DNA from: a virus | Virus record (IMG/VR): IMGVR_UViG_3300042452_000717 | Location: 1-50,940 of that record | Reading direction: 5' to 3' (one strand) | DNA length: 50,940 nucleotides | Part shown: positions 2,417-50,940 of the stretch, piece after piece | Layout: the number at the start of each line of letters is the position of its first letter | Numbering within the stretch: position 1 is the first letter of the stretch | The notes under the pieces: generated by a model | Told to the model about the DNA's origin: nothing | What the model saw: only the letters and a program-made list of their open reading frames with translations | Database searches by the model: none | Translations under genes and position numbers: made by a program

Positions 2417-3274
2417 TCAGTCCTGGGGCTGGGCGCTGCCGTTGAGCGCCATGATCGGGTCGGTCAGGAGATCGAACTTGGTGGCGAACAGCGCAAAGCC
2501 GCCCGCCCGGAGGTAGGGCGCATCGCTCTGGAAGAAGTTGCTCATCCGCTCGCGCAGGAGCGCCGTGTCGCCGCCGATGCGCTTCCAGAGCCTCGCGGCG
2601 TGGATGAAATCCGCTGCGGTCGGCGTGTACCGCTCGGCCGGCGGGATGTCCTTCGGGTCGGTCTTGACCGTCACCGTGAGGTCCCCGTGCCGGATGCGCG
2701 CCCAAGCCCGCTGGAACATCTCCACGGCCTGGACGTGCTCGCCCTTCTTCGCCTCGGGTTTGGGCTTCTTCGGGTTCTCGAAGAGGATGCCCGGAGACGC
2801 GCCGCGAGGCGCCGGCTCCAGTCCGGAAGAATGCGAAGCATTCTGGAGGACTGAATCTCTACTCTCCTCTACTCTCCTCTCCTGGGTAGACTTCGCTAGG
2901 GTGTCGCTAAGCGAGCCTGTAGGGTCGCTAGAGGGTTGCTTGGCATTAGCAGCCTTCGCCATGCCGCCCCTACGGCCGGATTCCCGCTGCTGGAGCCGGT
3001 AGGCGTCGGCCTCGGTCCGAGCGGCCTCCATCCAGGGCAGCGACAGCAGCCCGTCGGGTCCGCGCTCGAGCATGGCGGCGAGTAGCGTCTCGAACCCGGC
3101 GCCGCACGTCTGGCGCGCGTCGTCCTCGGTGAGGCGGCCCTCGCGCCAAGAGCGCCACGCAAAGCGCATCATCGCGGCCAGCGCGGCGTCATCGCCGAGC
3201 ACGCGCATCCCGCCGCGGGCTGTGGCGATCTCCGCCACGTCGAACCGAAACCACGGGAGGGGTTTTGTGGTCAT
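2417..3274 (-). CDS. replication initiator-like protein (DUF1376/phage O-like), 285 aa
   Basis: The N-terminus begins with a WFRFDVAEI segment followed by a winged-helix-like region. It runs into a basic linker (about residues 92-110, RESGRRGGMAKAANAK) typical of DUF1376-type replication proteins, where DNA binding precedes a low-complexity linker. The C-terminal part (about 180-285) is helical and would be the helicase or loader contact. Such proteins recruit the host replisome, which fits the absence of any phage polymerase or helicase. The ATG at 3274 has GGGAG 8 bases upstream. The linker DNA carries a repeat cluster that may be the origin. The family assignment is by motif recognition only. 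Confidence 0.6.
   Translation of the reverse strand: MTTKPLPWFRFDVAEIATARGGMRVLGDDAALAAMMRFAWRSWREGRLTEDDARQTCGAGFETLLAAMLERGPDGLLSLPWMEAARTEADAYRLQQRESGRRGGMAKAANAKQPSSDPTGSLSDTLAKSTQERRVEESRDSVLQNASHSSGLEPAPRGASPGILFENPKKPKPEAKKGEHVQAVEMFQRAWARIRHGDLTVTVKTDPKDIPPAERYTPTAADFIHAARLWKRIGGDTALLRERMSNFFQSDAPYLRAGGFALFATKFDLLTDPIMALNGSAQPQD
2828..2930. other. candidate replication origin inside the initiator gene
   Basis: Within the linker-coding part of the initiator gene lie, in order: a 7-bp inverted repeat with a 3-nt loop (AGAATGC 2828-2834, GCATTCT 2838-2844); a perfect 10-bp tandem repeat ACTCTCCTCT (2861-2880); and three TCGCTA copies at 2893, 2904 and 2925, spaced 11 and 21 bp, that is on one helix face. 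The middle copy is part of a palindrome (TCGCT-A-AGCGA, 2904-2914). Composition is visibly less GC-rich than the flanks. Lambda-type phages place their origin in the same position. No experiment supports it here. Confidence 0.4.
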
Positions 3275-3470: not shown

Positions 3471-3504
3471 CGTGACGCCGCGCAAATGGTCGGCGGGTCA
3501 CGGG

Positions 3505-3532
3505 TTGCGTTACTCGAAAAGTTCGCTAGATT
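3505..3532 (+). promoter_or_regulatory. candidate promoter of the late (packaging) block
   Basis: TTGCGT (3505-3510) and TAGATT (3527-3532) are spaced 16 bp and directly precede the first packaging gene. Transcription would begin about 3539-3540, at the chosen ATG (3540), implying a leaderless message; no ribosome binding site is visible before that ATG. This is a pattern match only. Confidence 0.35.
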
Positions 3533-3539
3533 CTCGTCC

Positions 3540-3965
3540 ATGCAGACGAGATCGAAGCCCTCGCGTGGCCCTCTTGGCAAGCGCCAGCGCTATACCGGCG
3601 TGGAGACGTGCGAGGCGTGCGGCGGGCCTTGGGCGTACGTCCGGCCGTCGACGGGAAGGACCGAGCGCGCGACGCTGCTGATCGTGGGCGAGGTCGAGTC
3701 GGCGATCCCTGGCAAGACGATCATCGCGCCGGCGCCGGGCCGCCGGGTGCGGGTGTGCATGAAGTGCAATTCGCAGATGCGCAGCGCGGGCACGTTCGAG
3801 CGCGTGAACGTCCCGGTGCGCAGCGTGGTCTCGGTGTACGGCCCGAAGCTCAAGGCGATGCTGGACGCGGGCCTGACGGCGACGCAGATCGCTCGAGCGC
3901 TCGGGGTCGACCGTGACCGGGTGCGCCGCGCGATCGACAGCATGAAGGCGAGCGCCGCGAAGTGA
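3540..3965 (+). CDS. putative small terminase subunit or DNA-binding protein, 141 aa
   Basis: This gene immediately precedes the large terminase and overlaps it by 4 bp (GTGA), the usual place of a small terminase subunit, which binds the packaging site on DNA. An N-terminal pair CEACGG (about residues 22-27) and CMKC (about 78-81) resembles a zinc ribbon. A C-terminal helix-turn-helix (LTATQIARALGVDRDRVRRA, about 112-131) would contact DNA. The ribbon is unusual for the family. An ATG 18 codons upstream (3486) is the alternative start; I prefer 3540 because a promoter candidate lies between the two. A late-gene regulator is the other possibility. Confidence 0.55.
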   Translation: MQTRSKPSRGPLGKRQRYTGVETCEACGGPWAYVRPSTGRTERATLLIVGEVESAIPGKTIIAPAPGRRVRVCMKCNSQMRSAGTFERVNVPVRSVVSVYGPKLKAMLDAGLTATQIARALGVDRDRVRRAIDSMKASAAK

Positions 3966-24827: not shown

Positions 24828-26840
24828 ATGGCCGTCCCCAAGATTTTCGGCGCACCGAACCCGCAGGACACCGGCGGCGCGATGTCGTCGCTCATCAGCG
24901 CGCAGTCGCAAGCTGCCGGGATGCAGCTCTCGGCGATCCAAAACGCCGTGTCGCAGGCCGTGCAGGGCTTGCAGTTCGGCGCGCAGATCCGCCAGCGCAA
25001 GGACGAGCAGCTCCGCGAGATCGAGGCGCAGAACAATCTCGAGCGGATGCGCCAGACGTTCCAGGGCGACCAGAATCGGCTGATGCGCGAGCAGGACGAG
25101 CGGCAGTTCAAGGCCAATCAGCGTCTCCAGTGGCGCCAGCTCAACTCTGAGAACGCCTACAGGGTGCGCGATCTCGGCATGCGGCGCTTGGGCTTGGATG
25201 CTGGCATCGCCAACCAGGAGCGCGGCTACGGGCTGGATGTTCAGGAGCTGAACCTGCGGAAGGCGGAGGCCGCGAGCAACGAGCGCGTGCGAGCTGGGCA
25301 GCTCGAGGTCCAGGCGCAGCAGCTCGCGGAGGCGCGCAAGAACCAGAAGCTCAAGGACCAGTCGGAGCGCTACAAGGAGTGGGCGTTCCAGCTTCTCCAG
25401 CAGGGCGGCCTGAAACAGATGCCGGACGGCACGGTCGAGTTCGATCCGAACGCGGCCGACTCGCTGATCCAGCGCTTCCGGTCCGGTCCGCGTCCTGGCG
25501 ATGTCCTCGAGGCCGCGAACGCTCCGGGCGCCGGCTTCGGCGTCGCGCAGGCGTTTGAGGAGATCAACCAGCCGATGAACCAGCGCGCGAGCAGGCGCGT
25601 CGACCAGGACATCGACGCCACGGCGGCCGCGGCGCGAGGTGGTGGCGGCGACACGCCGCTGCCGATGGCGCAGGGGCCGAAGTACGTAGACGGCGATGCG
25701 ATGGCAAAGGCGATCGAGTCGATCCCTGGGCTCTCGCAGGCTGGCGGGCTCGGGTCCGTCGTGCGAATGGCGGACGCCGGAAAGATCCTGGTCGATACGT
25801 CAACCGGGAAGCTCATGGCGGTTGGCGTCAACGATCCGCTTGTGTTGCAGGAGCTCGAGACGCTCTCGGTGCGGTTCGCGCAAAACCCGACCGCGGTGTT
25901 CGCGTTGATCGGCGAGGCTGCGCATCCCGGAATCGGACCCAACAAGGGCTTCGATGCTGGGCGGGTGCTGTACGGAGCCCAGGGCGGGCAACCGCAGTTC
26001 ACGGACCCCGGCGGCGGAATGGCGACGCCTCCCCCGCCTCCCGGTCCGCAAGGCCAAGTGCAAGGTCAGGCGCAAGGCCAAGTGCAGGGCGAGCAGCCGG
26101 CGCCGGCTGTGCAGTTGCCCGAGGATCGGTTCTGGAGCGACGCAGGGGTGACGGGGCCGCCCGCGGAGACTCCGCCGGGAACTCCTCCGCCGGCTGCGCC
26201 GCCGCGCCGGCCGCAAAGCCAGTTCGCCGGCTTGCCCGCAGGCCGCCAGCAGATGCGTGCGGCCGAAGGCGCTTCTGCGCCGCGCGGCGGGATGCAGCGT
26301 GCCCCGGAACAAATGCGCCGCGGTGCAGCCGCGCCCTCGCGCGCTACGGCGGCGCAGGCTCGGCCGTCGTCTGGTCTTGGCGACGTGCTTGCCACTGGAG
26401 TCGGCGGATCTGGAGCGTTCCAGACCGTGCCGCTACCGGATCGCCAGCCGCCGCAAAGCCAGTTCGCCGGCTTGCCCGCAGGCCGCCAGCAGATGCGTGC
26501 GGCCGAAGGCGCTTCTGCGCCCACGGATCAGCGTCAGCCGACGACCGCAAGCGAGCGCGCTCAGTCCGCTCCGCGCGACTACGAGAAGCTCGCGCAGTTG
26601 TACCGCGGGCACGGGAAAGGCCTCGAAGGACTTGCGCCGGAAGAACTCCAGGGGCGGGGCCGAGGCCGCGATCTGTCGCGCAGCAAGCTCGAAGTGATGG
26701 CGCGCGAAGGCTCGCCCGACACCGAGGAAGCTGTTACGCTCGCGCGGTCGCTGGGCCACATCTCCGAAGCGGAGGCCGAACAGCTCCGGCGACGCTCCGC
26801 CGATGTTGCAAGACAGCGCGACCGCAAACGCAAACGGTAG
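24828..26840 (+). CDS. putative ejection (internal virion) protein, 670 aa
   Basis: The N-terminal 200 residues form long Gln/Arg/Glu helices (QIRQRKDEQLREIEAQNN), with a second coiled-coil stretch to about residue 190. After about residue 400 the protein is Pro-, Gln- and Ala-rich and disordered, and contains an exact 72-bp DNA repeat (24 codons, period 80 codons). The C-terminus is charged and basic. This is the build of ejection-complex proteins. Its end overlaps the start of the 2713-aa gene by 38 nt. Confidence 0.6.
   Translation: MAVPKIFGAPNPQDTGGAMSSLISAQSQAAGMQLSAIQNAVSQAVQGLQFGAQIRQRKDEQLREIEAQNNLERMRQTFQGDQNRLMREQDERQFKANQRLQWRQLNSENAYRVRDLGMRRLGLDAGIANQERGYGLDVQELNLRKAEAASNERVRAGQLEVQAQQLAEARKNQKLKDQSERYKEWAFQLLQQGGLKQMPDGTVEFDPNAADSLIQRFRSGPRPGDVLEAANAPGAGFGVAQAFEEINQPMNQRASRRVDQDIDATAAAARGGGGDTPLPMAQGPKYVDGDAMAKAIESIPGLSQAGGLGSVVRMADAGKILVDTSTGKLMAVGVNDPLVLQELETLSVRFAQNPTAVFALIGEAAHPGIGPNKGFDAGRVLYGAQGGQPQFTDPGGGMATPPPPPGPQGQVQGQAQGQVQGEQPAPAVQLPEDRFWSDAGVTGPPAETPPGTPPPAAPPRRPQSQFAGLPAGRQQMRAAEGASAPRGGMQRAPEQMRRGAAAPSRATAAQARPSSGLGDVLATGVGGSGAFQTVPLPDRQPPQSQFAGLPAGRQQMRAAEGASAPTDQRQPTTASERAQSAPRDYEKLAQLYRGHGKGLEGLAPEELQGRGRGRDLSRSKLEVMAREGSPDTEEAVTLARSLGHISEAEAEQLRRRSADVARQRDRKRKR
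26210..26281 (+). repeat. 72-bp direct repeat, first copy
   Basis: Bases 26210-26281 recur exactly at 26450-26521, 240 bp later and in the same reading frame. Each copy encodes a Gln/Ala/Gly-rich stretch containing QFAGLPAGRQQMRAAEG. Exact identity, including synonymous positions, points to recent duplication or gene conversion. Confidence 0.95.
26450..26521 (+). repeat. 72-bp direct repeat, second copy
   Basis: Identical to 26210-26281 and in frame with it, inside the disordered part of the 670-aa ejection protein. The two copies differ only outside the repeat boundaries. Confidence 0.95.
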
Positions 26841-29800
26841 CCGCCGAACCGGCCGCAAGCTGGTCGATGCGCTGAACCTCGCAATCCAGGCCAAAGACCG
26901 TGGCGAGCCCGCCTCGGAAGCGGGGCGCTCGCTTGCGCGCCAGCTCGAATCCGTGGCGCTGCGCCCGGACGCTGTTGGGCTCCAAGCTCGCCAAGTTCGC
27001 AGCGCCTACGACGCCTTCTACACGGCGCGCAACAAGGGCGAGCAGGCGCCCCCGCCGCAGTTGCAGCTCGGCGCAGACTTCGCGGACTTCGACCTCGACT
27101 CGAGCGCCTACGAGAACGCTCGCCGGGTCGACCTCCTGGGCCGCACGCGCCAGCCGAGCTACCACGGGCCGGACGGCGGGCTGTACGTCGACGCTGGCGG
27201 CGTCCCCACGCGCATCCCGGTCGAGCGCTACGCGCAGTTCAAGGATCAGCTCGTGCGCGCGTACCGCGGCGAAACGCCGTCGACGGGCTTGCCGATCACG
27301 TCGATCTCCACGATGTCGAAGGCGGCCGACGTGGCGCTTCGGGCTGGAGAGTGGGCTCTGGGTGAAGGCTCGTGGGAGGACACGACGCCGTTCTTCAACG
27401 TCCCGACCGCCGACCCCGACATGCCTTTCGCGTCGCTGCCGTCGTTCGCGCAGACGACTGACGCGAGGTGGTCAGCCGCGGATCGCGCCGAAGCGTACGC
27501 ACTTCTCCAGAATCCGATCGAGCTCCGTGCGATGCAGGAGGTTCTGGCGCAGGCGAGCAGCGAGGGCGCGCTCGACATCGGCATCGGCGGGCACATCCTT
27601 GCCACGGCTGGGTTCCTCGCCGACTTCGGGGCAACGGGCGGCTATCTCAAGGCCGCTGGAGCGATTGCAGGGGCCACGGCGCTGCGCGTGACGGGCGCGC
27701 TGGGCTCGAACATCGGGCAGACCGTCAAGGCCGCCGAGAACGTCACCAGGATCGACCGGGCGCGCGGGGCAGCCACGGCGACGCCGTTCTCGCAGGGCTT
27801 CCAGACCATCCGCGACTTCGTGGGCTACCAAGTCGTCAACGACGCCGTGCACGGCCGAATCGGCTCCGCGTCCGACTTCGCGGGGAGCGCGCTGACCGGC
27901 GCGAAAGACGGCGCGATCATGGCGGGCGCGGGAAGCCTGATCCGCATGGTGCGCTCGAACCTGATGGGCCGGCTCGCGGGCAGCTACGACCCGGTGACGA
28001 ATCGCGCGATGTCGAAGCTCGGGCCGCTCGGGCGCGCGGCCGCCGGGATCTACCACACGGCTCGCGGCGCCGACCCGAAGCTGGGGCAGAAGTTGGGCGT
28101 CGACGAGATGACGAAGCGAGTCGCCGCGCTCTCGTCGCAGGGGCGCGGAATCCGCGAGATGCTGGCACGCCAGGGCTGGAGCCAGCACGCCGCGCAGATG
28201 GTCGAGAACACGATGGACTCGGCCGCGCTCGGGATCATGTTCGGCGCGTACCACAACGCCACGGCGAGCCCCGGCTACGACGACCTGCACCCCTGGGAAA
28301 AGACCAAGCGCATGGTCGACGGGCTGACGAGCCCCGAAGCCATCGGCGGCGCAGTCGCGTTCGCTGGGCACGTCCTGGCGACGGGCTACGCCAACAAGTT
28401 CAAGTGGGGCAAGGAATGGGAGAAGGCCCCGCCGGCGATGCGAGAGCAGTTCGACAAGGAGCTCGAGTTCTACACGCGCGAGATCGCGCAGCCGTCGAAC
28501 TGGGAGAACGTCGAGGCGTTCCGCAAGGCGTTCGACGAGTACCGCAAGGCGTCGCCGAAGGAGTGGGCGGCCTACAAGGAGTTCGAGACGCCCTACGAAC
28601 GCGAGGCGCTCCAAGCCGCCTGGGAGGGCCAAGCCGATTCGCTGATCCGTGCGCCGGATCGCCGCGAGCCCCCGAACGACACGCCCCCGGCTGGCGAAAC
28701 GGCGTTCCCGGACCCCGGCCCGCTGGAGCCCGCAGGAGGCGCTGGGGCGCGTCCGGCCGAGATTCGACCCGAGGGGCAAGCTGCGCCCGCCGCGCAGCCG
28801 CCGCAGGGCTTCTCGCAATCGGAGTGGGCCGAGGCTCTGGCCGGGGAAATCCTGACCAACCCGGAGGCAGCACTCTCGCGGATGGGAGTTGAGGCTCCGG
28901 CGCAGCCGCGCACGCGCGAGCGGAAGCCGGTCTCCGGCGAAGGCCCCGACCTCATGCGCTCCATCGAGCGCGTCGCCGAGCTCGAGCGCATCCCCGCCAC
29001 CGAGCTCGTGCTCGCCCCCGAGGAGATGCAGTACAAGTCGGGCACGGACCCCAAGACGGGCCGCGATCCCGAGGGCGCGCTCACCAAGCTCAAGTCGCGC
29101 GACGAGTGGTCGGAAATCTCCGCAGGAACAATCCTCGTCTACGAACGCGCAAACGGCGAGCGCGTGGTTGTGGACGGCCACCAGCGCACCAACGCAGCGA
29201 AGCGGCTCAGCCAGGGCGGCGAGCCGATCGAGCTCAACTCGTTCGTGGTCCGGGAATCGGACGGCATCACGGCGGGGCAGGCGCGGGCTCTCGGCGCGAT
29301 CCTCAACACGCGGGCGGGCACCGGCAAGGCGCTCGACGTGGCGAAGGTCATCCGCGATCTGGGCTGGACGGCGGAGCAGGTCGAGCAGCTCGGCGTTCGC
29401 GGCGCGTTCGCCAAGCAGGCGGTCGGCCTCTCGCAGCTCGCTGATCCTGTGTTCGCGCAGGTCGTGAACGAGCAGCTCCCGGCGAACCTCGCGGCCGAGA
29501 TCGGTCGCTTCATCCCGCGCGCCGACGAAGCCCGCCAGCTCGCGGCCGCGCAGATGATCCAGCGCACGGCGAAGAACGTCGAGATGGCCGAGAGCATCGC
29601 GCGCGGCGCCGCCACCGAGGAAGTGTTCGCCGGGCGCCAGACCGACTTGTTCGGCGGCTCCGACGTGAAAACCATGCTCGAGCTCCGCACGGAGATCACG
29701 AGCGACATCCGGCCGCAGTTGAAGCGGCTGGCGACGGCCATGAAGTCCTTGGCGCGCAACGCGGAGACCGCCCGCGAGCGCAAGGTCGGCGAGATCGACG

Positions 29801-32800
29801 CGCAGCAGGCGCGCACGCTGGCCGAGGACCAGAACGCCCTCATCGCGGCGATCGAGATGCAGGCGGGCAAGCGCGGGACCACGATCAATGAACTCCTCAA
29901 CCGTCACGCAGAAGAGCTCGGCAAGCTCCCCGACGAGCGCAAGCGCATCGCCGAATCCGCCCTCCGCGAACTCGAACTCCTCGCGCAGCAGGGCCGTCTT
30001 TTTGACGATAGCGGCGCAGGGCCTTCGCAGCCTGCTCAGCAGCAGTCCGGCCCCAGCCTCTTCTCCGACCCGACCTACGACTACAACCGAGGCCAGCAAA
30101 GAGCCCGGTTCCCCGAGACGCGGGAGCCCGTCGAGCCGCTGACGCCAGAGGTCGAGAAGTCGTGGCTCGGCAAGCTCCAGGGCGCGCTGTTCCCTCAGAG
30201 CGAGTACCGGAACGACCGGGTGAAAACCCTCGTCGAGCAACTCGTGACGCGCGCGGGACTCAGCTCGAAGGAAGCCGAGATGGTGGTGCAGGCGATGGAG
30301 GCTCGCGCCGAAGTCTGGGCCAAGTCCAACGGCAAGACCATCGACCAGTGGTACGAGACCAGGATTGCGGGGATCGTCAACTCGCCGACGCCGATGCCGG
30401 CGCCGGAGGGAGCGCGCGCCGCGGTGACGTTCTTGAGTGACGGCCGCGCCGTGCTTCACGCGCTGAGCAAGCCGCGCGTGTCCGACATCGTGCATGAACT
30501 CGCGCACATCTGGCGGCGCGACCTCGAGGGCGCTCACAAGGCGGCTGTCGAGAAGTGGGCTGGCGTCCGCGATGGCGTCTGGACCCGCAGCGCTGAAGAG
30601 AAGTGGGCTGGCGCCGCCGAGCGCTGGTTCCGCCAGGGCCGCGCTCCGGCGCCCGGCCTTGCCCCGGTGTTCAAGCAGATGGGCGAGTGGATGCGCTCGA
30701 TCTACCGCCGCATCCGCGGGACGGGCCTCGACGTGGAGATCCCCGCCGACGTGCGCAAGGCGCTCGAATCGCTGTTCTCCGCCGGACCGATCAAGGAGGA
30801 CGCGGCGGTGCAGGCCCGCCTCGCTCGACTCGGCCCGGCGGAGCGCGGCGCGATCTACGTGGCGAACCGCAACAAACCGCAGTACGTCGGGTTGCCGCAG
30901 GACACGATCGTCGCGCACGAGCTCCGCGGCGGCCTCCCCGCTCCCGCGCGCATCACGCCCGCCATCAAGATCGCGCAGGCCGGCGACTCGATTCGGCAGG
31001 CGTACGACGTGATGCGCTGGCACAGTGCGCTCGAGAACGTCCCGTACAACCACCCCGACACGTTCCACGCGCTCATCGAGCTCGCCAAGGGCGGCGAGGC
31101 GTACCGGGCGCACTTCGAGGCGCGTGGCTCGCTGGACGCGCTCACGCTGGCCGTGGAGTCCGCACGCCGCGCCAAGGCGCAGACGCGCGACGCGATCATG
31201 GCGTCGCTGCCCGAGGGCAAGATCCGCGAGCGGATGCCGCTGTCGTTCGAGTACCTCGACGCGCGCGAAGGCACCAAGCCCGTGCCGCCCGAGCTCATCA
31301 AGAAGATGCAGGCGACCGGCCTCGCTGACGCGAAGGGGCGGCTCAACCGCTTCGTCATGTCGGCGCTGACGCACCACGCGCAGAACGAGATGGCGCTGCG
31401 CGCTCTCGAGCACATCGGCGCTCCGCAGTTGAACGAGCCGCAGGCGGCCGCGCTGCCGCACTTGGCTTTCAACCGTTCGCCGTGGGAGTTCCTCGAGACC
31501 GCGCTCGCGCGCGCTGTTTCGCTGGACCGCGTGATGGACAAGCTCCGCGAGAAGAAGTGGATCTCGCCGGAGATGAACCGGGCGATCACACGGATCGGCT
31601 CGTTCTACGGCCAGATGTGGAGCGGGAACGCCGCGGGCAGAATCCACAACGCGACCATCCAGTCGGCCGCGATGCGCGTGTTCGGTTCGCGCGAGCAGTT
31701 CAGCGACATGCTGCGCGGCCGCGGCGAGGACGCTCTCGCCAAGCTGTCGGAGCGCTTCGGGTTCCGCGCGCCGCCGGCGGCCGACATGAAGCTCCTCCAG
31801 TGGGCGATCGAGAGTGGCCGCTTCGCCAAGATGAAGGGGCCGCAGGATTTCGAGCGCTACCGCAAGGGCTCGGGATACCTCTTCGACCTCGCGCGCGACA
31901 TCAACGACATCATGGGCCGTCTCGGCCAAGCCGCCGCGCGCTTCGGCTACCTCGACCCCAAGCAGATCGAGAAGCACGGCGGCCGGTACGTCCCGCACCT
32001 CTACTTGTCGCTGGAGAACCAGGACATCGTGAAGGAGCTGCGCGAGGGACGGATGCCTTCGTTGTTTGCCGGCCGCAACATGGCGCGTGGCTCCGAGTCC
32101 AAGGACGGGATCACCCAGCTCCAGATCGAGGACCCGTTTGTCTGGCTCTCCACGGTCACGCACCAGGAAGCCAAGGCGATCCAGTACCTCGGCGTGCTGC
32201 AAGACCTCAAGAACGGCAACTACGCGATCAGCGAAGCGGAGTACAGGAAGCTCGACCCCTACAGCCAGGGCGTCTACGAGCCGCTCACGCTCGACGTGGT
32301 GGGCGCAAACCCGAGCGAGGCGTCGCTCGCCAACGGCCCGGCCCGCGCCAACTCGATCGTCATGGGGAACCTGCTCAAGGAGCAGCTCGACCCCGCGAGC
32401 GGCCGCCCCAAGAGCACGCAGCTCACCGACACGCTGCGCGCGTACCTCGGACTCGACGCCGACATGAAGCCCTCGAAGGAGGGTCGCCTCTACGCGCCGC
32501 GACAACTCGTCTGGGAGTTGGACAACCTCACCCGGCAGATGTTTAACGCGCCGGAGCTCGAAACGATCGTCGACAAAGCGATGTACGCCTACGAGCAGGC
32601 GACGCGCGGGTTCCGCCGCGGGCTCACCATCGGGCGCCCGAAGCACTGGACGCTGAACGTCACCAACTCGGTGATGACGAACCACGTCCTCGACCGGCTC
32701 CCTATGTGGGACGTTGCCAAAAGCGTTCTCACCGGGAAGGGTTACTTCGCCGACGCGCAGCGCGACATCGCCGGACTCCTCGAGCTCGTGCAGCGGCGCT

Positions 32801-34944
32801 CGCTGGAGACGAAGCCCGCCGACTGGACCAACGAGAAGTGGGAGCGCACGCAGCTTCTCCAAGAGGCGTTCCTCACGCTGAACGGCACGACGTTCACCGG
32901 CGTCGGCATCGAGGCGAGCGTCGTCACGGATGCGATGAGCGCGGCCGTCACGCCCGACATCACGACGGCGGGCGCGCTGCGCGATCTCCAGCGCTCGGGC
33001 ATCCCGGCTGAGTCTCAAGCCGCGTGGCGCGTTGCCGCGCTCGACATGGTGCGCCGCATGACCGGCGGGCTCACGGAGTTCGACCGATTCCTCGCCAAGC
33101 TCGGCGGATCGCACGACGCGAACGAGCGCGCCCGCGCGATGGCGAACTTCACGGGCTTCTACCAGCTCTGGGAAATGGCCTTCAAGTGGGCCGCGACGCT
33201 GCGCACGATCGACACGCAGCCCGAAGCAACTTCGCTCGACCAAGCCGTTCGCTACGCCGCGGTGGGCACGGCCGACTACGCGAACACCAGCCCGCTGATG
33301 CGGTCCTTCAACTCGAGCTACTCGAGCTTCTCGACCCCGCTGTTCAAGGAGGCTGAGGGCGATGGCGGCCGCTGGGCGCGCGCGTTGATGCGCGAGTCGC
33401 TCAAGGGCCAGTTCTGGATGTACACGAGCACGATGACCGGGCCGCTCATGTCGAGCGTCGTGGTGCATCCGCTGCGCGCTGCGAGCGCGATGGCCGTCAT
33501 GTCGGCCGTTGCGGGGATGCTGCACCGGATCACGACGCAGGACCCCGAAGAGGATGCTTCCTTCCAGGAAGCGCTGCGCGGCTCGGTGGCGCGCTCCGGC
33601 ACTCCGATCGTCGACGCGGCCACGCTCGAGGCGTACTCGCGCCTGGGCGCACCGTGGCCCAACGTGACGGGCGGCGCGATGATCCCGCACGAAGCACGCA
33701 AGGGGCTCGCGTTCGTCTACCAGTCGATGCTCGCGGGCAAGTCCCTGATCTTCCAGGCTCCGGCGCGCGGCGACGAAACCCGCGTCTCGAGTCTGGACGA
33801 GCTCGCGCCCGGCTGGGGCAACTGGATCGGCGCCGCGCAGGGTCTCCAGAGCGCCGCCTCGAAGTCGCCCGACCAGATCGCAACGTCGATGTTCGATGCG
33901 ATGTCGCTGCGCTCCGGCGAGCTCTCGATTGCGATGGCGCACGCAGCCTTCGGCGGGCTCAAGCTGCTGACGAGCGACGACCCCGAGGCGTGGATCAACT
34001 CGCTCAAGCCCGTGCGCGACGCGGCGAGCGACGTGCTCCCCGGAATCTCGCCGTTCTACCTCGCCTCGCGCGACGGCCAGCGATTGATCGAGGTTGCGGC
34101 GCTCGACGGGCAGAAGATCGAAGAGTGGGCGCGCGGCATCGTCCAGGCGAACCAGCCGCGTCCCGCTCAAGACCTGGGCGAGTTCCTGTTCTCGACGCTC
34201 TGGCGTTCGCAGCGCCTCGTGCAGCCCCACATGGGCGGCGTGTCCGAGCGCGAAGCCCTCGACGCCATCGTCGGCCGGCTGTTCCCGGAATCGGCACGCT
34301 CCGACGGGCCTTTCTGGGACAAGCTCCGCTCGGCTCAGTCCGACGTTCACTACCAGATGAGCGAGGTTCTCTCCGGGGCCTACGACTCGTGGCTCCGCGG
34401 CGGGCGCTCGATGGCGTCCTTCGACTCGTGGCTGCTCCCGCAGATGTTCTCGAAGGACGGGCCGATGCAGTCGCTCTTGCGGCGCGAGCCCGACCCCGAG
34501 AAGCGGGCGCGGATGAACGAGTACTTCCAGCGCTTCGTCGGCAGCGACGAGTGGTCGAACCTCTCTGGGATGGCGATGGACCTCGCCCGCAAGCGCGCGA
34601 TGACGCCGGACTTCTTCCGGCAGGCGCTCACCAACGCCATGCGCGACCCGACCGGCCAAGCCATGCTCAACTGGCTCGACAAGGAGGTCGTCCGCTCCAC
34701 GCCGAGCCGCGAGGACATCCACGACTACGCCGCGATCTTCTTCGGTGCGGTGCGTCGTCCAGGATTTGGAACGGCCCGCTACCAGCAGTGGGAGCAAGTG
34801 CTGCGGCGGCTGTACGATTACGGCTACAAGCCCGCTGTGCTGTACGACGACGCGGCCGAAGCGCTGCGCCGCCGAGGCATCAAGCCGGAGATTTCCGGCG
34901 CCCCCGCGCTCCAATCCGCCCTCATCACCAGACCACCGAGGTAG
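26803..34944 (+). CDS. giant polyvalent ejection protein with ParB-like and zincin domains, 2713 aa
   Basis: This protein fills 16% of the genome and follows two ejection candidates, so it is probably packaged and injected. Residues about 240-400 are Gly/Ala-rich and partly hydrophobic. About 610-690 is Pro-rich. A ParB-like domain follows, with VDGHQRTNAAKRL (790-802), the core motif of DdrB-type ParB proteins. A zincin motif HELAH (1231-1235) is followed by EEKWAGAAERWF, giving the third ligand expected for this family. The C-terminal 1,300 residues are largely helical and match no domain I can name. ParB plus metallopeptidase plus a long tail is the plan of phage polyvalent proteins, thought to counter host defences on entry. 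Confidence 0.72.
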   Translation: MLQDSATANANGSRRTGRKLVDALNLAIQAKDRGEPASEAGRSLARQLESVALRPDAVGLQARQVRSAYDAFYTARNKGEQAPPPQLQLGADFADFDLDSSAYENARRVDLLGRTRQPSYHGPDGGLYVDAGGVPTRIPVERYAQFKDQLVRAYRGETPSTGLPITSISTMSKAADVALRAGEWALGEGSWEDTTPFFNVPTADPDMPFASLPSFAQTTDARWSAADRAEAYALLQNPIELRAMQEVLAQASSEGALDIGIGGHILATAGFLADFGATGGYLKAAGAIAGATALRVTGALGSNIGQTVKAAENVTRIDRARGAATATPFSQGFQTIRDFVGYQVVNDAVHGRIGSASDFAGSALTGAKDGAIMAGAGSLIRMVRSNLMGRLAGSYDPVTNRAMSKLGPLGRAAAGIYHTARGADPKLGQKLGVDEMTKRVAALSSQGRGIREMLARQGWSQHAAQMVENTMDSAALGIMFGAYHNATASPGYDDLHPWEKTKRMVDGLTSPEAIGGAVAFAGHVLATGYANKFKWGKEWEKAPPAMREQFDKELEFYTREIAQPSNWENVEAFRKAFDEYRKASPKEWAAYKEFETPYEREALQAAWEGQADSLIRAPDRREPPNDTPPAGETAFPDPGPLEPAGGAGARPAEIRPEGQAAPAAQPPQGFSQSEWAEALAGEILTNPEAALSRMGVEAPAQPRTRERKPVSGEGPDLMRSIERVAELERIPATELVLAPEEMQYKSGTDPKTGRDPEGALTKLKSRDEWSEISAGTILVYERANGERVVVDGHQRTNAAKRLSQGGEPIELNSFVVRESDGITAGQARALGAILNTRAGTGKALDVAKVIRDLGWTAEQVEQLGVRGAFAKQAVGLSQLADPVFAQVVNEQLPANLAAEIGRFIPRADEARQLAAAQMIQRTAKNVEMAESIARGAATEEVFAGRQTDLFGGSDVKTMLELRTEITSDIRPQLKRLATAMKSLARNAETARERKVGEIDAQQARTLAEDQNALIAAIEMQAGKRGTTINELLNRHAEELGKLPDERKRIAESALRELELLAQQGRLFDDSGAGPSQPAQQQSGPSLFSDPTYDYNRGQQRARFPETREPVEPLTPEVEKSWLGKLQGALFPQSEYRNDRVKTLVEQLVTRAGLSSKEAEMVVQAMEARAEVWAKSNGKTIDQWYETRIAGIVNSPTPMPAPEGARAAVTFLSDGRAVLHALSKPRVSDIVHELAHIWRRDLEGAHKAAVEKWAGVRDGVWTRSAEEKWAGAAERWFRQGRAPAPGLAPVFKQMGEWMRSIYRRIRGTGLDVEIPADVRKALESLFSAGPIKEDAAVQARLARLGPAERGAIYVANRNKPQYVGLPQDTIVAHELRGGLPAPARITPAIKIAQAGDSIRQAYDVMRWHSALENVPYNHPDTFHALIELAKGGEAYRAHFEARGSLDALTLAVESARRAKAQTRDAIMASLPEGKIRERMPLSFEYLDAREGTKPVPPELIKKMQATGLADAKGRLNRFVMSALTHHAQNEMALRALEHIGAPQLNEPQAAALPHLAFNRSPWEFLETALARAVSLDRVMDKLREKKWISPEMNRAITRIGSFYGQMWSGNAAGRIHNATIQSAAMRVFGSREQFSDMLRGRGEDALAKLSERFGFRAPPAADMKLLQWAIESGRFAKMKGPQDFERYRKGSGYLFDLARDINDIMGRLGQAAARFGYLDPKQIEKHGGRYVPHLYLSLENQDIVKELREGRMPSLFAGRNMARGSESKDGITQLQIEDPFVWLSTVTHQEAKAIQYLGVLQDLKNGNYAISEAEYRKLDPYSQGVYEPLTLDVVGANPSEASLANGPARANSIVMGNLLKEQLDPASGRPKSTQLTDTLRAYLGLDADMKPSKEGRLYAPRQLVWELDNLTRQMFNAPELETIVDKAMYAYEQATRGFRRGLTIGRPKHWTLNVTNSVMTNHVLDRLPMWDVAKSVLTGKGYFADAQRDIAGLLELVQRRSLETKPADWTNEKWERTQLLQEAFLTLNGTTFTGVGIEASVVTDAMSAAVTPDITTAGALRDLQRSGIPAESQAAWRVAALDMVRRMTGGLTEFDRFLAKLGGSHDANERARAMANFTGFYQLWEMAFKWAATLRTIDTQPEATSLDQAVRYAAVGTADYANTSPLMRSFNSSYSSFSTPLFKEAEGDGGRWARALMRESLKGQFWMYTSTMTGPLMSSVVVHPLRAASAMAVMSAVAGMLHRITTQDPEEDASFQEALRGSVARSGTPIVDAATLEAYSRLGAPWPNVTGGAMIPHEARKGLAFVYQSMLAGKSLIFQAPARGDETRVSSLDELAPGWGNWIGAAQGLQSAASKSPDQIATSMFDAMSLRSGELSIAMAHAAFGGLKLLTSDDPEAWINSLKPVRDAASDVLPGISPFYLASRDGQRLIEVAALDGQKIEEWARGIVQANQPRPAQDLGEFLFSTLWRSQRLVQPHMGGVSEREALDAIVGRLFPESARSDGPFWDKLRSAQSDVHYQMSEVLSGAYDSWLRGGRSMASFDSWLLPQMFSKDGPMQSLLRREPDPEKRARMNEYFQRFVGSDEWSNLSGMAMDLARKRAMTPDFFRQALTNAMRDPTGQAMLNWLDKEVVRSTPSREDIHDYAAIFFGAVRRPGFGTARYQQWEQVLRRLYDYGYKPAVLYDDAAEALRRRGIKPEISGAPALQSALITRPPR

Positions 34945-44824: not shown

Positions 44825-44853
44825 CTTGCGGTGTTGTGAGTTGTGAGAGGTAG

Positions 44854-45839: not shown

Positions 45840-46217
45840 CTAGTTCGATTGCTCGATGCGGCGCAGCGTGAACTCGCGCCAAGAGGGAGGGAGTTTGTCG
45901 AGGTTGTGGGCCAGCAAGTCCAGCGGGGCGCGACCGAAAGGCTCGCCGATCATGCGGAACTCAAGGCGCACGCCGGGGAGCGGCTCCAGCATCTCCACTT
46001 CGCAGACGCCGTAGTAGATCGTCCGCTCTCCGCGCTTGGCGTCGGTGTCGAGCATCTGGCGCGCGGCTTTTGAGGCCCCCTGTGCGATGCCGCGCAGTTC
46101 GGCGCGGTCCAGCCCCATCATCACGCCGACAACCTCGTCGAGCGTGTTGTCCGAGCGAATGACGAGGCAGCAAATCGCGTGGATGCGAACGGAGTCGCGG
46201 GTCGTCGTGGTGGTCAT
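45840..46217 (-). CDS. hypothetical protein, 125 aa
   Basis: A small mixed domain (RIHAICCLVIRSDNTLDEVV, then VRLEFRMIGEPFGRAPLD) with no membrane span. It is the first gene after the palindrome-bearing gap and directly precedes the exonuclease, so it is probably co-transcribed with the recombination genes. GAGG lies about 9 bases before the ATG. No family is recognised. Confidence 0.65.
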   Translation of the reverse strand: MTTTTTRDSVRIHAICCLVIRSDNTLDEVVGVMMGLDRAELRGIAQGASKAARQMLDTDAKRGERTIYYGVCEVEMLEPLPGVRLEFRMIGEPFGRAPLDLLAHNLDKLPPSWREFTLRRIEQSN

Positions 46218-46533
46218 CTTTCGGGTCCTCGAGCGCGTGGGTTAGGTCGCGCTTCGACGATGGTAGCCGCCGGTCAACGCCGAGGGAACGGCAATTCGCC
46301 GAAAACATGGAAGAATGGCGGGGCCGAACTTTGGCGGGCGCGGGGGGAACGAGTGATAGATAGCTGGGCTCGAGGTTCTGAGTCTGGGATTGGTTCTGGG
46401 GTTTGGAGGTTTGGGACGGCCGGCCTGGCTGTCCAGGATTTGGACGGGCTGGGTCCACGGTCTGGAAATAGAGGCGCCCCGCGTCGTCCTGAGATTGGAC
46501 GGGCGGGGCGCGAGTGTCGGGCCGGCGGGGCCG
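46218..46533. other. 316-bp gap holding three operator-like palindromes
   Basis: This is the longest gene-free gap of the leftward block. Its right half holds three GTCCA-N5-TGGAC-type palindromes (46431-46500); left of them is a run of degenerate TCTGGG/TTGGAG-like repeats (about 46375-46425). It lies immediately upstream of the recombination genes and downstream of the 40-aa gene, so it probably contains a second promoter for the block. I cannot fit a convincing -10/-35 pair. Confidence 0.5.
46431..46500. promoter_or_regulatory. three 15-bp operator-like palindromes
   Basis: GTCCAGGATTTGGAC (46431-46445), GTCCACGGTCTGGAA (46453-46467) and GTCCTGAGATTGGAC (46486-46500) share the pattern GTCCA-N5-TGGAC with one or two mismatches. 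Their starts are 22 and 33 bp apart, two and three helical turns. The same family recurs at 50705-50801. Likely binding sites for one dimeric regulator. Confidence 0.6.
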
Positions 46534-46656
46534 TTAGAAGTTGGCGCAAGGGCCGAGGATTGCGGCGGCGAGCACGATTCCGGCGACGGTCAACGCGAGT
46601 TCAGCAGCGGCGCGTTCGATCCACGGCGGCGGATCTTCGGGGCGGGGGGCGCTCAT
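46534..46656 (-). CDS. 40-aa single-span membrane peptide
   Basis: A short gene whose ATG (46656) overlaps the upstream stop (ATGA), the same coupling as its neighbours. A Pro-rich N-terminus (SAPRPEDPPPWIERA) is followed by a hydrophobic stretch (AELALTVAGIVLAAAILGP) and CANF at the end. It would cross the inner membrane once. Too short for confident family assignment: a holin-like or host-takeover peptide is possible. Confidence 0.6.
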   Translation of the reverse strand: MSAPRPEDPPPWIERAAAELALTVAGIVLAAAILGPCANF

Positions 46657-47210
46657 TCGAGCGGCGGCTCGGCGTGGAAATCGCTCGGCGGCGTGGTGGT
46701 GTAGCCGATGGACGCGAGTTGGTCTCCGATGTCCTCAAGCAAGCGAGCTTCGTCGCAATCGTCCTGCGCGAGCCGGTCTGCGATGTCGTTGGCGATTTGG
46801 TAGAGGGCGTCGGCGTGCTCCTCCTCGCTCTCCAGCGTCTCGCGTTCGTTTGCGTCGTAGGCGAGGCGAAGCGCGGCGCGTTGGTGGCGCGCGCAGTCCA
46901 GCGCGAGCGCGACGCTGATAGCCTGCGAGGCGGGCAAGCCGGCGAGTTTGGCGGCGGCGTCCACGGGTCGATTCTCTTCCAGTAGGTAGACGATCTCGCG
47001 GGCGATCCGGTTCGCGTCCACGATCGGAAGGGCGCTGCGCATCGCAGCCTCTTCGCGTTCCCAAGCTGCATCTGTGGGCACTCCGCGATCATCTGTCTCC
47101 TCGTCGTGCTGCGCGTCGATGATGGCGCGGGCGTGCTCGATCTGCGCCTGAGTGCTCGCGCGCTTGTCGGCGTCGATGCTGGCGGGGCTGGTGGTGTGCT
47201 GCGTGTCCAT
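46653..47210 (-). CDS. acidic hypothetical protein, 185 aa
   Basis: An acidic helical protein (many Asp and Glu; ETDDRGVPTDAAWEREEAAM, EEEHADALYQIANDIADRL) with the segment NRIAREIVYLLEENRPVDAA and a C-terminal acidic helix. It has no known domain. ATG at 47210 is chosen; the frame continues upstream without a better start. It follows the VWA gene by 44 bp and precedes the membrane peptide (ATGA), so it may be part of the ATPase-VWA module; DNA mimicry is a guess based on acidity alone. Confidence 0.6.
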   Translation of the reverse strand: MDTQHTTSPASIDADKRASTQAQIEHARAIIDAQHDEETDDRGVPTDAAWEREEAAMRSALPIVDANRIAREIVYLLEENRPVDAAAKLAGLPASQAISVALALDCARHQRAALRLAYDANERETLESEEEHADALYQIANDIADRLAQDDCDEARLLEDIGDQLASIGYTTTPPSDFHAEPPLE

Positions 47211-47254
47211 TGTGTCGGGTGTGGTAGGTAGTTGGTGTTGGTCGGTCGGTCGGT

Positions 47255-48499
47255 TCACACTGCGACGCGCCCCAGGTGGGCGCGAAGCGTTTTCGTCCAG
47301 ATGGGAACGAGTTCGGCGGGGTCGGGAACCACGATCGGCGGGACGCTTGACCAGCCGGCGCGTTCGATGGAGTCGGCTCCGTCTACTGCGTCGCTGCCAA
47401 GCAAGATCGGCCAAAGCTCGACGCCAGCGGCGCGAGCGTTGCGCCATTGGGGCTCCTCGGCGCGCACTGCGCCGTCGCAGATCAGCATCAAGACTCGGCG
47501 CGGCTCGTGGCGCTTCGCAAGCTCGGCGCAAGCGCGGGCGCAGGCCTTCGGCGCGTGCGTGTCGTAGCTGTACCATTCGGGCATCACGTCAAGCTCTGTT
47601 TGCGCGTGCGACTGCGCGTCATTCCAGCCGATCACGTCTCGCCATTGTTCGGGCACTCCAGGCGCGGGCCGCACTTCGCGCGGGTCTCCGTACTGCGACA
47701 GTGCGACTTTGATTCCTGCGCGAGCGAGTGCGCGATATGCAATCGCAGCCGCGCGCTTCGCAGCCTCGCCGCGTCCGAATTGGCGCATTGAGCCGCTAGC
47801 GTCCAGCGCGATAAACACTGCGCAGCCGCGCACGTCCGGCTTGATGCGGCGCGAGAACGCACGATCCAGGTCGAGTCCAAGGGCCGTCGGCGCAATTCGT
47901 GACAGGTCGAGTTCGCCCGCGTCTTGATTGTGCATCTCGCGTCCGCGTCGGCGCTCGCGCAAAGCCTCCGACAGTGCGGCGCGAATCAAGGGTTCACCGC
48001 TGTAGTCGATCGGCCCCTTGAGGGTGCCAGCGGCGAGCGGGTCCACGATTGCGCCGTCAACGTTCACGGGCGGGCTCTGGCCCTCGACGTTCGCGTTGAC
48101 CAGCTGCATAACCTCCGATCCGTCGGCGGGCGCGGTCGGGCTTGCTTGGAACGTCTGGCCGTGGCCGTCGATCTGGCCGACAACGCGAACCGTGGGCGTG
48201 CGTCCCTTCGGGGCGCTGTCCAGGCCGGGAAACTCGGGCAGCTGGAAGGGCCGGCCGTTCTTCGGCTTCTTCCATGTCTTGGGCGATGCTTGCTCGTTCG
48301 TCCACTTCGCCAGACGCTCGGGCTGGTTGATGCGCATTCGCGCGGCGTGGTTCGCAAACTCGGGCTCGCAACCGATCCACGCGAAGGCGCGGGCGTGGTG
48401 CTGCGCCGGCGTCTCGGTCGGATGCTCGCGCTGCGCCTTCTCGTAGAGGTCGGCGAGACGGTAGAGCGTGCGGCGGCGCTGTAGCGGGGTGAGCTTCAC
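47255..48499 (-). CDS. VWA-domain protein (CobT/BatA-like), 414 aa
   Basis: The C-terminal half is a von Willebrand A domain with a MIDAS motif DASGS (residues 233-237) and a third metal residue in LICDG (Asp 342), so it should bind divalent metal and ligands. The N-terminal 200 residues are less structured. It starts at a GTG that overlaps the ATPase stop (GTGA), and such MoxR/CobS ATPase plus VWA pairs act as chaperone-like remodelling machines (as in CobS-CobT or CbbQ-CbbO). The target is unknown. The acidic protein gene follows. Confidence 0.8.
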   Translation of the reverse strand: MKLTPLQRRRTLYRLADLYEKAQREHPTETPAQHHARAFAWIGCEPEFANHAARMRINQPERLAKWTNEQASPKTWKKPKNGRPFQLPEFPGLDSAPKGRTPTVRVVGQIDGHGQTFQASPTAPADGSEVMQLVNANVEGQSPPVNVDGAIVDPLAAGTLKGPIDYSGEPLIRAALSEALRERRRGREMHNQDAGELDLSRIAPTALGLDLDRAFSRRIKPDVRGCAVFIALDASGSMRQFGRGEAAKRAAAIAYRALARAGIKVALSQYGDPREVRPAPGVPEQWRDVIGWNDAQSHAQTELDVMPEWYSYDTHAPKACARACAELAKRHEPRRVLMLICDGAVRAEEPQWRNARAAGVELWPILLGSDAVDGADSIERAGWSSVPPIVVPDPAELVPIWTKTLRAHLGRVAV

Positions 48500-49938
48500 G
48501 GGGCGCCAACCTTCCAGCCTGCATCGTCGGGCTTGATGATGGTGGCCGCGTTCGTTGCTTGTCCAGGCGTCAGCAAGTTGAGAATGCCGAGGCGCCACGC
48601 GGTCTTGGGCGGGATGGCGTCCACGCCCGCGCGGCCGGCATCGTCTCGGCCGAGCACCATGCGCAGCCATTGGACGCCTAGGCGCGTGCTGGGCGGGATC
48701 GTGAGGTTTCCGCGCAAGTGCTCGCGCCGCAAGTGCGCCAGCGTCTCGGCGAGTTTGCGCGAGCGCGCAGCGTCCAGGCCGGCGCGTTCAAAGAGCGCAG
48801 CCTCTTCGGATTGTGACAGGTAGTCGGCCGCGATCCCTCGGCAACGAGTCAGAAAAGCAGCGTCGATCCGGTGCGACGAATAGCTTCCCGACTCGTCTCG
48901 GAGTCCGTTGCAAGTGCCGATGATTTGAAAGCCGGGCGCGGCCGTGATTGTCTCTCCGGTCTCGGGCAAGTAGAGAGTGCGGCGCGTGGTGTCGGGTTCA
49001 AGCGGCGCGTGAAACAGTGCGGCGAGCAACGGGTCGAGCTTGTCGCACTCGTCCAGTACCAACACTGCGCCGCTCTTCATCGCCAGCGGCAGCGGTCCGT
49101 AGCGGTACTCCAGGCTCGGCGTCGTCTGCGACGGGCGACACGCAAGCGCGCTGTAGGTGATTCCGTCCGCGCAACTGACCAGGACTGCGCGGCGTCCTGC
49201 GCGGGCGCATTCCTGCAAGATCGGATAGGTTTTGCCGCTGCCGCTCGGGCCGCTGACCAGGGCGTGCGAGTGTCGGGCGAGCATCGCTCGAATCTCGGCG
49301 CTCGTGTCGCTCGCGTCATGGTAGAGCGCGTCGGGCGTCGGGATCTCTCCGACGAGTGCGACGGGTCCGCCCTTGGCGCGGGCGTTCACTTCGACCAGGG
49401 CGGCGCGTGCTTCGTCGTACGCTGCGCGGCGGGCGTGAAGCTCCAGGGCTGCGGCGTCGTACTGCGGGCGTGCTTCGACTGCGGCGAGGCGCGAAACTAG
49501 CGGCGTGTCGAGCTCCTCGGCGATGCGGCGAACCTCGTCCGGGTCGATGCTTGCGCGCTGCGGGCCGAGGCGGGCTTGAAGCTCGGCCGCGAGCATATCC
49601 AGGGCGCTCGATGCTGCCGGCGCTGCGACCGGCGCGCTGCGCGGCTGCGGCGTGGTGAGAGGTAGCGTCGGCGTCGCCAGCGGCGCGGCGAACGGTGCGG
49701 GCGCAGGAACGCTCGAACGCTCCTCGCTGGCGCTCGGGTGGACGGGAACGGCGGGCAGTCCGCACGCCTTGTGTGCGTAGACGTTCACGCGCTTGCCGGC
49801 TTTGCTGTGTCCAGGCGGGTAGGTGTAGCCATCGTGGATCGACAAGATGTGCGATCCTTCCGGGTAGGCTCGGCCGCACGTCCAGCATGTGCCGCCGTAC
49901 TTGCTGGCGGTGTACTCGCGGGTTTCGGTGGCGGTCAT
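48496..49938 (-). CDS. MoxR/CobS-like AAA+ ATPase with N-terminal zinc motif, 480 aa
   Basis: The AAA+ core has a Walker A GPSGSGKT (230-237), Walker B VLVLDE (292-297), sensor-1 Asn in QIIGTCN (344) and an arginine-finger candidate in AFLTRCRG, all intact. Residues 1-60 carry CWTCG (Cys 18, 21) and AHKACG (His 56, Cys 59), a likely zinc ribbon, followed by a Pro/Ala-rich linker to about residue 115 and a coiled-coil-like stretch. ATG at 49938 overlaps the stop of the previous gene (ATGA). It is coupled to the VWA gene. Confidence 0.85.
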   Translation of the reverse strand: MTATETREYTASKYGGTCWTCGRAYPEGSHILSIHDGYTYPPGHSKAGKRVNVYAHKACGLPAVPVHPSASEERSSVPAPAPFAAPLATPTLPLTTPQPRSAPVAAPAASSALDMLAAELQARLGPQRASIDPDEVRRIAEELDTPLVSRLAAVEARPQYDAAALELHARRAAYDEARAALVEVNARAKGGPVALVGEIPTPDALYHDASDTSAEIRAMLARHSHALVSGPSGSGKTYPILQECARAGRRAVLVSCADGITYSALACRPSQTTPSLEYRYGPLPLAMKSGAVLVLDECDKLDPLLAALFHAPLEPDTTRRTLYLPETGETITAAPGFQIIGTCNGLRDESGSYSSHRIDAAFLTRCRGIAADYLSQSEEAALFERAGLDAARSRKLAETLAHLRREHLRGNLTIPPSTRLGVQWLRMVLGRDDAGRAGVDAIPPKTAWRLGILNLLTPGQATNAATIIKPDDAGWKVGAP

Positions 49939-50171
49939 GCCTGCACACTCCGCCCGGCGAGCGCTGCGGCGTAAACCTCGGCGGCGTTCGACACTCCAGG
50001 AAGCTCCTGGGCAAGCGTCGTTGCGCACACTCGGGAAAGAGTCTTGGCGGGCAAGTGGCGGATCATTCCGCCCATCGCAGCGAAGCGCGAGGCGCGGCGG
50101 CGCATGACACGGCGCGCAATGTTGCTGCGGGCCTGCGCGATCGTGCGCGGCGTGAGAGGTAGCGTGGTCAT
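49935..50171 (-). CDS. small basic hypothetical protein, 78 aa
   Basis: Arg-rich helical protein (ARSNIARRVMRRRASRFAAM, then HLPAKTLSRVCATTLAQEL) with no known domain; nucleic-acid binding is possible. The ATG at 50171 has AAGGA about 8 bases upstream, clearly better than an upstream ATG at 50264. It is the first gene of the leftward block and overlaps the ATPase gene (ATGA). Confidence 0.65.
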   Translation of the reverse strand: MTTLPLTPRTIAQARSNIARRVMRRRASRFAAMGGMIRHLPAKTLSRVCATTLAQELPGVSNAAEVYAAALAGRSVQA

Positions 50172-50280
50172 CGGTTCATCCTTCGGGTGGGTGCGCGCTT
50201 CGCTCCGCCTTGCTCGGTCGGACCGCGTAGCGCGCTGCATCCCTTGTAGCGGACTCTTCGGCATAAGGGAACGGGCAATC

Positions 50281-50294
50281 CGCTACGATCTTCG
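50281..50294. repeat. 14-bp motif shared with 3309-3322
   Basis: Second copy of CGCTACGATCTTCG, about 110 bp upstream of the first gene of the leftward block, as the other copy is about 35 bp upstream of the replication initiator gene. Orientation is the same relative to both leftward transcripts. Confidence 0.35.
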
Positions 50295-50704
50295 CATCTT
50301 ACTGCGCCCTTACAATTGAAGGGGCTGCGCAAGCCTCGGCGCTCCAACCTCTTGCGAGCACCGTGCGGGCCGTCACTTGACAAGGGCCTGCCAGGGCCGT
50401 CCCTTGCCTTGGGGCTGCGCAGTCGGGATCTTCGCCACGCTGGGCGGGCGGAGCAGCGCTGCCCATACCAGCCAACTGCATGACGTGCCTGGGGCGCGGC
50501 CGCACAACGCTGGGCTTGGATGCGCCGGCCGCTCGGATCGGGGATCGGATCGGACGGTGAGTGAGAGGTAGGTGCGCACTGATGCGCCGGCCGGATCGTG
50601 CGGGTGATCGGTCGGACGGTCGGAACGTCGGACGTGGGGAGGGAGGGGATCAACCGCGCGCCCGCCCGCTCTCCCCACCGCCACGCCGGCCGCCGCCCCA
50701 GGCC

Positions 50705-50801
50705 GTCCAGAATCCGGACGCCGGCCGGCCGCACCGATCGTCCAAGTTCTGGACACTGACGCGCGCGGTAGAGTCCAAGATCTGGAATCCAGAATCTGGA
50801 C
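50705..50801. promoter_or_regulatory. four 15-bp operator-like palindromes
   Basis: GTCCAGAATCCGGAC (50705-50719), GTCCAAGTTCTGGAC (50740-50754), GTCCAAGATCTGGAA (50773-50787) and ATCCAGAATCTGGAC (50787-50801) share the pattern GTCCA-N5-TGGAC with up to one mismatch. Starts are 35, 33 and 14 bp apart, the last two overlapping by 1 bp. Placement about 530 bp upstream of the leftward block fits an operator or activator array. The same family is at 46431-46500. Confidence 0.65.
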
Positions 50802-50841
50802 TGGCGGGTCGCGCGCGGGACGGGGGTGGGGAGGGGTGGCC

Positions 50842-50940
50842 GGGGGGTTTCGGCGGGGAATGGCGATGGATGATCCCTCATCCCTCCTCACCCGCCTTCC
50901 TCCGCTCTGGGTCCCCGTGGAGCACCTGGGAGTCCCGTTT
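50842..50940. repeat. 99-bp direct terminal repeat, right copy
   Basis: Identical to bases 1-99. See the left copy for interpretation. Confidence 0.95.

Follow-up and report, generated by a model that had tools for sequence, protein, structure and literature searches.

Conserved arrays of the palindrome GTCCA-N5-TGGAC in two intergenic gaps of an uncultured tailed phage: possible iteron-like sites of an initiator-type protein

Genome context of the two arrays

The DNA analysed here, called the window below, is the whole of IMG/VR record IMGVR_UViG_3300042452_000717 (50,940 nt). The record is a 50.9-kb virus with an identical 99-bp direct repeat at its ends (1-99 = 50842-50940), and it is probably, and most simply, a circular assembly, because 99 is a typical assembly k-mer length; for the same reason, true terminal repeats or a cos site were dropped as explanations of the end repeat. 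Matches to TerL-like, portal and major head proteins indicated a tailed phage, and the leftward early set encodes RecE-like, RecT-like, RusA, CobS-like and CobT-like proteins. The scanned window proteins gave no match to a DNA polymerase, a primase, a replicative helicase or an O-like initiator. Elsewhere in the window, a perfect 72-bp direct repeat (26210-26281 and 26450-26521) lies within the gene 24828-26840, and 26803-34944 encodes a single 2713-aa late protein that matches large families of unknown function and has one stretch weakly like a ParB-like PHROG (E 4e-5).

The sole independent relative found was IMGVR_UViG_3300044611_001951, which is mostly syntenic with the window and shows about 80% identity for most proteins; 3300042945_003542 is a closely similar fragment. 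Alignments of the CobS-like protein and of protein 2417-3274 searched against viral contigs returned this relative only, the major capsid protein alignment searched against genome contigs returned zero relatives, and two more fragments, each identical to the TerL of the window, came from a TerL search. Among GenBank phages there was no close match at the DNA level, and all of their TerL matches were below 60% identity. The CobS-like AAA+ protein (48496-49938) is nearly identical in the relative in its C-terminal part and much more diverged in its N-terminal part.

Two gaps in the leftward block carry the palindromes. Gap 1 lies between the leftward gene 45840-46217 and a leftward reading frame of 40 aa whose stop is near 46535. 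The features are as follows.

46218-46534, no strand: gap 1, non-coding, with three sites (from the sequence and the alignment with the relative)
46431-46445, no strand: site GTCCAGGATTTGGAC, exact, with an identical 15-mer in the relative (100% identity, alignment columns 254-269)
46453-46467, no strand: site GTCCACGGTCTGGAA, one mismatch, with no counterpart in the relative
46486-46500, no strand: site GTCCTGAGATTGGAC, one mismatch, in the upper part of a terminator-like hairpin
46474-46511, minus strand: GC-rich hairpin of the leftward transcript (from RNA folds)
50172-50940 and on across the circle to about 354, no strand: gap 2, with four sites (from the sequence)
50705-50719, no strand: site GTCCAGAATCCGGAC, one mismatch (from the one-mismatch scan)
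50740-50754, no strand: site GTCCAAGTTCTGGAC, exact; its reverse complement GTCCAGAACTTGGAC also occurs as a site at L017, a locus of an unrelated phage
50773-50801, no strand: 29-bp double palindrome GTCCAAGATCTGGAATCCAGAATCTGGAC, made of sites 50773-50787 and 50787-50801 with one base in common
50802-50940, no strand: conserved non-coding block adjoining the gap-2 array (85% identity, alignment columns 101-200)
9431, 14084 and 20369 (coding) and 22694 (short gap): scattered exact sites (from the exact-match scan of the window)

Number, spacing and enrichment of the sites

The first-pass annotation had reported seven copies of GTCCA-N5-TGGAC, and all seven are present, at 46431, 46453, 46486, 50705, 50740, 50773 and 50787, and above chance; the exact pattern is found only at 46431 and 50740, and the other five carry one mismatch. 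Their starts are 22 and 33 bp apart in gap 1 and 35, 33 and 14 bp apart in gap 2. Exact matches in the window numbered 6, against 0.01 in dinucleotide shuffles, and in a comparison of every 5-mer arm at a spacer of 5 bp, GTCCA ranked first in the window (6 vs 0.10 expected) and likewise in the relative (4 vs 0.08 expected). With at most one mismatch allowed, and with the density elsewhere in the genome as the expectation, gap 1 had 3 sites vs 0.07 expected (P about 5e-5) and gap 2 had 4 vs 0.23 expected (P about 9e-5).

The earlier site list had missed the four exact matches outside the gaps. Coding DNA as a whole showed a modest excess, with 9 sites vs 2.6 in synonymous-codon shuffles (PWM score at least 14), and the scattered exact sites of the window are absent from the relative. 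Dispersed silencer sites were set aside for this lack of conservation.

Conservation of the arrays and their surroundings

Both arrays are kept in the relative. Its gap 1 contains GTCCAAATCCTGGAC, the same site as in the window, and GTCCGAATCCCGGAC, while its gap 2 contains the double site GTCCAGGATCTGGATTCCAACTCTTGGAC, in which one base is common to two sites as in the window, and three more sites. Thus two of the grounds on which an array of operators could have failed, a similar density of matches in coding DNA and a loss of the sites in related phages, did not go against it, and the arraying of one palindromic dimer-type site in both gaps holds up as a conserved feature; the promoter-operator role proposed for it is unsupported, as detailed below. 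The conservation of the arrays rests on one independent relative.

In gap 2, the double site and the adjoining block are 85-86% identical to the relative, vs 36-67% in most other gap-2 DNA. Among viral contigs, the 29-bp double palindrome matched only the relative's two records. The block 50802-50940 is GC-rich and non-coding, and the AT content adjoining the gap-2 array is 16-30%, so there is no AT-rich element there; next to gap 1, AT reaches at most 44% in a C/A-rich stretch found in the window only. A motif near GCTACCTCTCAC (at most 2 mismatches) was also seen on the leftward sense strand (minus) at 44843, 46353, 48813, 49655, 50152 and 50561, giving six copies in the early region of the window and four on the matching strand of the relative (L005), a frequency just slightly above chance.

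The conserved block beside the gap-2 array, together with terminase genes about 4 kb off across the circle, could point to packaging (terminase) or partition sites. We consider this very improbable, since a second array is present in gap 1, no ParA/ParB pair was recognised in the window and the 99-bp end repeat is most simply the overlap of a circular assembly.

In gap 1, the hairpin 46474-46511 had RNA-fold z-scores of -3.5 in the window and -6.0 in the relative, and is followed by a weak U tract in the window and by TTTTTCG in the relative; a terminator scan of the window did not list it. The second conserved gap-1 site lies in this terminator-like hairpin in both phages, so it may be kept for RNA structure. 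The sites as a whole could likewise be RNA hairpins, acting as terminators or processing signals, rather than targets of a DNA-binding protein, and some mismatches in the relative do preserve G-U pairing (GTCTGG..CTGGAC). However, the best-conserved site, GTCCAAATCCTGGAC, does not differ between the two phages although an A-C in its stem is unpaired, the ends of several sites do not pair, no Rfam match was obtained, and no U tract follows any site other than the one in the hairpin. RNA hairpins were therefore kept as a rival only, because the strictly conserved site pairs incompletely, and we regard them as quite improbable.

The same site in initiator genes of other phages

A scan of IMG/VR for two tandem GTCCA-N5-TGGAC sites gave 49 loci, mostly unrelated and with 30-70% GC. 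Translation across many of these arrays yielded proteins that start with a winged-helix domain and have the array in the hinge, and at a few loci the array abuts the winged-helix gene rather than overlapping it. Among 22 proteins read across arrays, 17 matched PHROG 270 (replication initiation protein), 14 PHROG 678 (replication initiation O-like), 10 HTH_36 and 4 Pfam Phage_rep_O. In-gene arrays occur, among others, at L018, L022, L024, L033, L041, L047, L050, L052 and L053, where in-frame translation yields repeats such as VQKMD or SPKNG. The survey commonly showed spacings of 21-24 and 30-36 bp, and the 22, 33, 33 and 35 bp of the window fit them. Sites in L017 and L032, both of which have winged-helix (wHTH) genes, have the same sequence as two 15-mers of the window. 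In six initiator-type phages that were checked, every exact site lies within one array, unlike in the window.

A winged-helix initiator profile made from such proteins overlapped the array in 27 of the 49 GTCCA loci, a count that includes the profile's training members, and with two anagram arm pairs as controls it did so in 7 of 26 loci for CTGAC and in 0 of 32 for TCAGC. Training on the CTGAC set by itself gave a profile that recovered 8-9 of the 49 GTCCA loci. Because only these two pairs, among many possible ones, served as controls, the excess of GTCCA among arrays in initiator genes is suggestive and not calibrated. CTGAC-N5-GTCAG arrays also lie within winged-helix initiator genes (L069, L070, L076, L077, L082, L087 and L090), which indicates that the layout is general for phage initiators and that the arms vary, GTCCA being common. 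Palindromes of the 5-N5-5 type with differing arms may accordingly be a general iteron layout of phages.

The survey also bears on the idea that the sites belong to a DNA-binding protein of the host, recruited by the phage or controlling it, an idea in keeping with the lack of an obvious partner among the phage genes. The site recurs inside phage initiator genes and in phages of 30-70% GC, which implies very different hosts, and the double site, which alone was searched for, was present in 0 of 84,980 species genomes. A host protein is thus an improbable owner of the sites.

Candidate binding proteins and the promoter-operator role

Three window proteins were considered as possible partners of the sites.

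49935-50171, minus strand: 78-aa basic protein encoded by the leftward gene that comes first after gap 2, with 69% identity to its counterpart in the relative
2417-3274, minus strand: 285-aa protein, 94-95% identical in the relative
3486-3965, plus strand: helix-turn-helix protein ahead of the terminase gene in the late operon (PHROG 686, E 1.4e-4)

Family searches gave no convincing family for the 78-aa protein, and its structure model was unusable (mean pLDDT 55). The 285-aa protein is a weak candidate for an initiator. Compared by hhalign with a nine-protein DUF1376 profile, it scored best of 33 window proteins, with an E of 0.011 that is not convincing; Pfam, PHROG and NCBIfam gave nothing convincing for it, neither PF07120 nor the phage database gave a match, and its AlphaFold model was unusable (mean pLDDT 44). 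GTCCA sites were not found in DUF1376-type genes. The helix-turn-helix protein is the sole match of its kind in the window, with HTH_29 and HTH_23 falling below the Pfam cut-off, and is a candidate for either a regulator or a small terminase; the divergent region beside its gene has no GTCCA-type sites. Searches of the window with Pfam, PHROG, NCBIfam and a 26-initiator profile detected no O-like or HTH_36 initiator, a result that a very divergent one could escape. That no repressor gene is obvious, as the first-pass annotation had remarked, was borne out by these family searches, and a recognisable initiator is missing as well.

The role proposed at first was that of operators, at which a phage-encoded dimeric regulator would govern both leftward units by repressing or activating promoters within the gaps. 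Both arrays do lie upstream of leftward genes, palindromes at helical spacing suit a dimeric regulator, the late region has further sites in modest excess over codon shuffles, and the helix-turn-helix protein exists. Against this, a scan that covers this one promoter type detected no sigma-70-like promoter in the two gaps, the arrays lie 214 bp (gap 1) and 534 bp (gap 2) upstream of the next start codons, and one site sits in the hairpin. The scattered sites are unconserved, no repressor-type gene was recognised in the window, and the helix-turn-helix gene has no sites beside it. In other phages, the closest matches fall within replication-initiator genes rather than next to repressor genes. 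Transcription-regulator operators are a plausible reading, though a less likely one than the iteron-like sites discussed below.

Arrays as possible iteron-like initiator sites

It is established that the sites exist, that they cluster, that they are conserved and that arrays in the initiator genes of unrelated phages share them. Since the relative keeps the arrays and unrelated phages have the same site within initiator genes, the arrays are probably sites of a replication initiator or a related control protein. We tentatively read them as iteron-like sites of a phage-encoded dimeric initiator-type protein, serving as an origin and/or its control, with a rough probability of 0.45, and we favour this reading over transcription-regulator operators because of the overlap with initiator genes and the iteron geometry of lambda.

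In such a system, a dimeric initiator-type protein would bind the palindromes in both gaps, where the arms GTCCA and TGGAC have their centres about one helical turn apart. One gap, or both jointly, would be the replication origin or an origin control element, and the protein bound at the arrays could restrain leftward transcription too, a form of autoregulation. In both phages, the minimum of the detrended GC skew falls no more than about 1 kb from gap 1, which is only suggestive of an origin because gene orientation shapes the skew too.

A wider proposal is that GTCCA-N5-TGGAC is a recurrent iteron specificity of unrelated phage initiators (30-70% GC), and that here it would serve an unrecognised initiator family with an origin or control region that is divided over two intergenic gaps and has a 29-bp double iteron. 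Taken as a whole, we hold this to be doubtful. The open-access papers searched gave nothing specific on the motif or on a survey of such iterons. If the proposal is true, one searchable pattern would help to find replication origins and initiators in uncultured phages, and why one DNA target is common to the initiators of very different phages would become a concrete question. It would also indicate a possible replication start in the window phage and a missing DNA-binding protein outside the standard families.

Comparison with known systems

Repressor operator arrays of phages include OL and OR of lambda and the dispersed stoperators of mycobacteriophage L5. The window resembles them in that several copies of a site of dimeric type precede early genes and more copies are scattered, but its scattered copies are mostly coding and unconserved, the repressor gene was not recognised and promoters were not identified.

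Initiator-gene arrays such as those at L018, L022, L052 and L053 have the same arms and spacer as the window and similar spacings. In the survey, such arrays overlap or abut a winged-helix initiator gene; no gene of this kind was found in the window, where extra exact sites are scattered.

The RepA_N iterons of the PLE satellite (Vibrio cholerae) are semi-palindromic repeats in a non-coding origin, to which an initiator of DnaD-like fold binds (PMC7145576). The window shares semi-palindromic repeats in non-coding DNA with this system, but the repeat differs and the window has no RepA_N match.

The lambda O iterons ATCCCTCAAAACGAGGGA have the 5-N5-5 geometry with arms CCCTC/GAGGG, and four of them lie within the O gene with an AT-rich element adjoining (PMC7466680). 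The window is like a lambda-type origin in its several short palindromes with 5-bp arms, a 5-bp spacer and a spacing of a few helical turns, and a palindromic iteron array of the lambda-O type is present as seven sites in two clusters that are conserved in the relative. It differs in that its arrays lie between genes at two places, not in an initiator gene, and in that neither an O gene nor an adjoining AT-rich element was recognised. The arrays may act in an iteron-like way without being a lambda-type origin.
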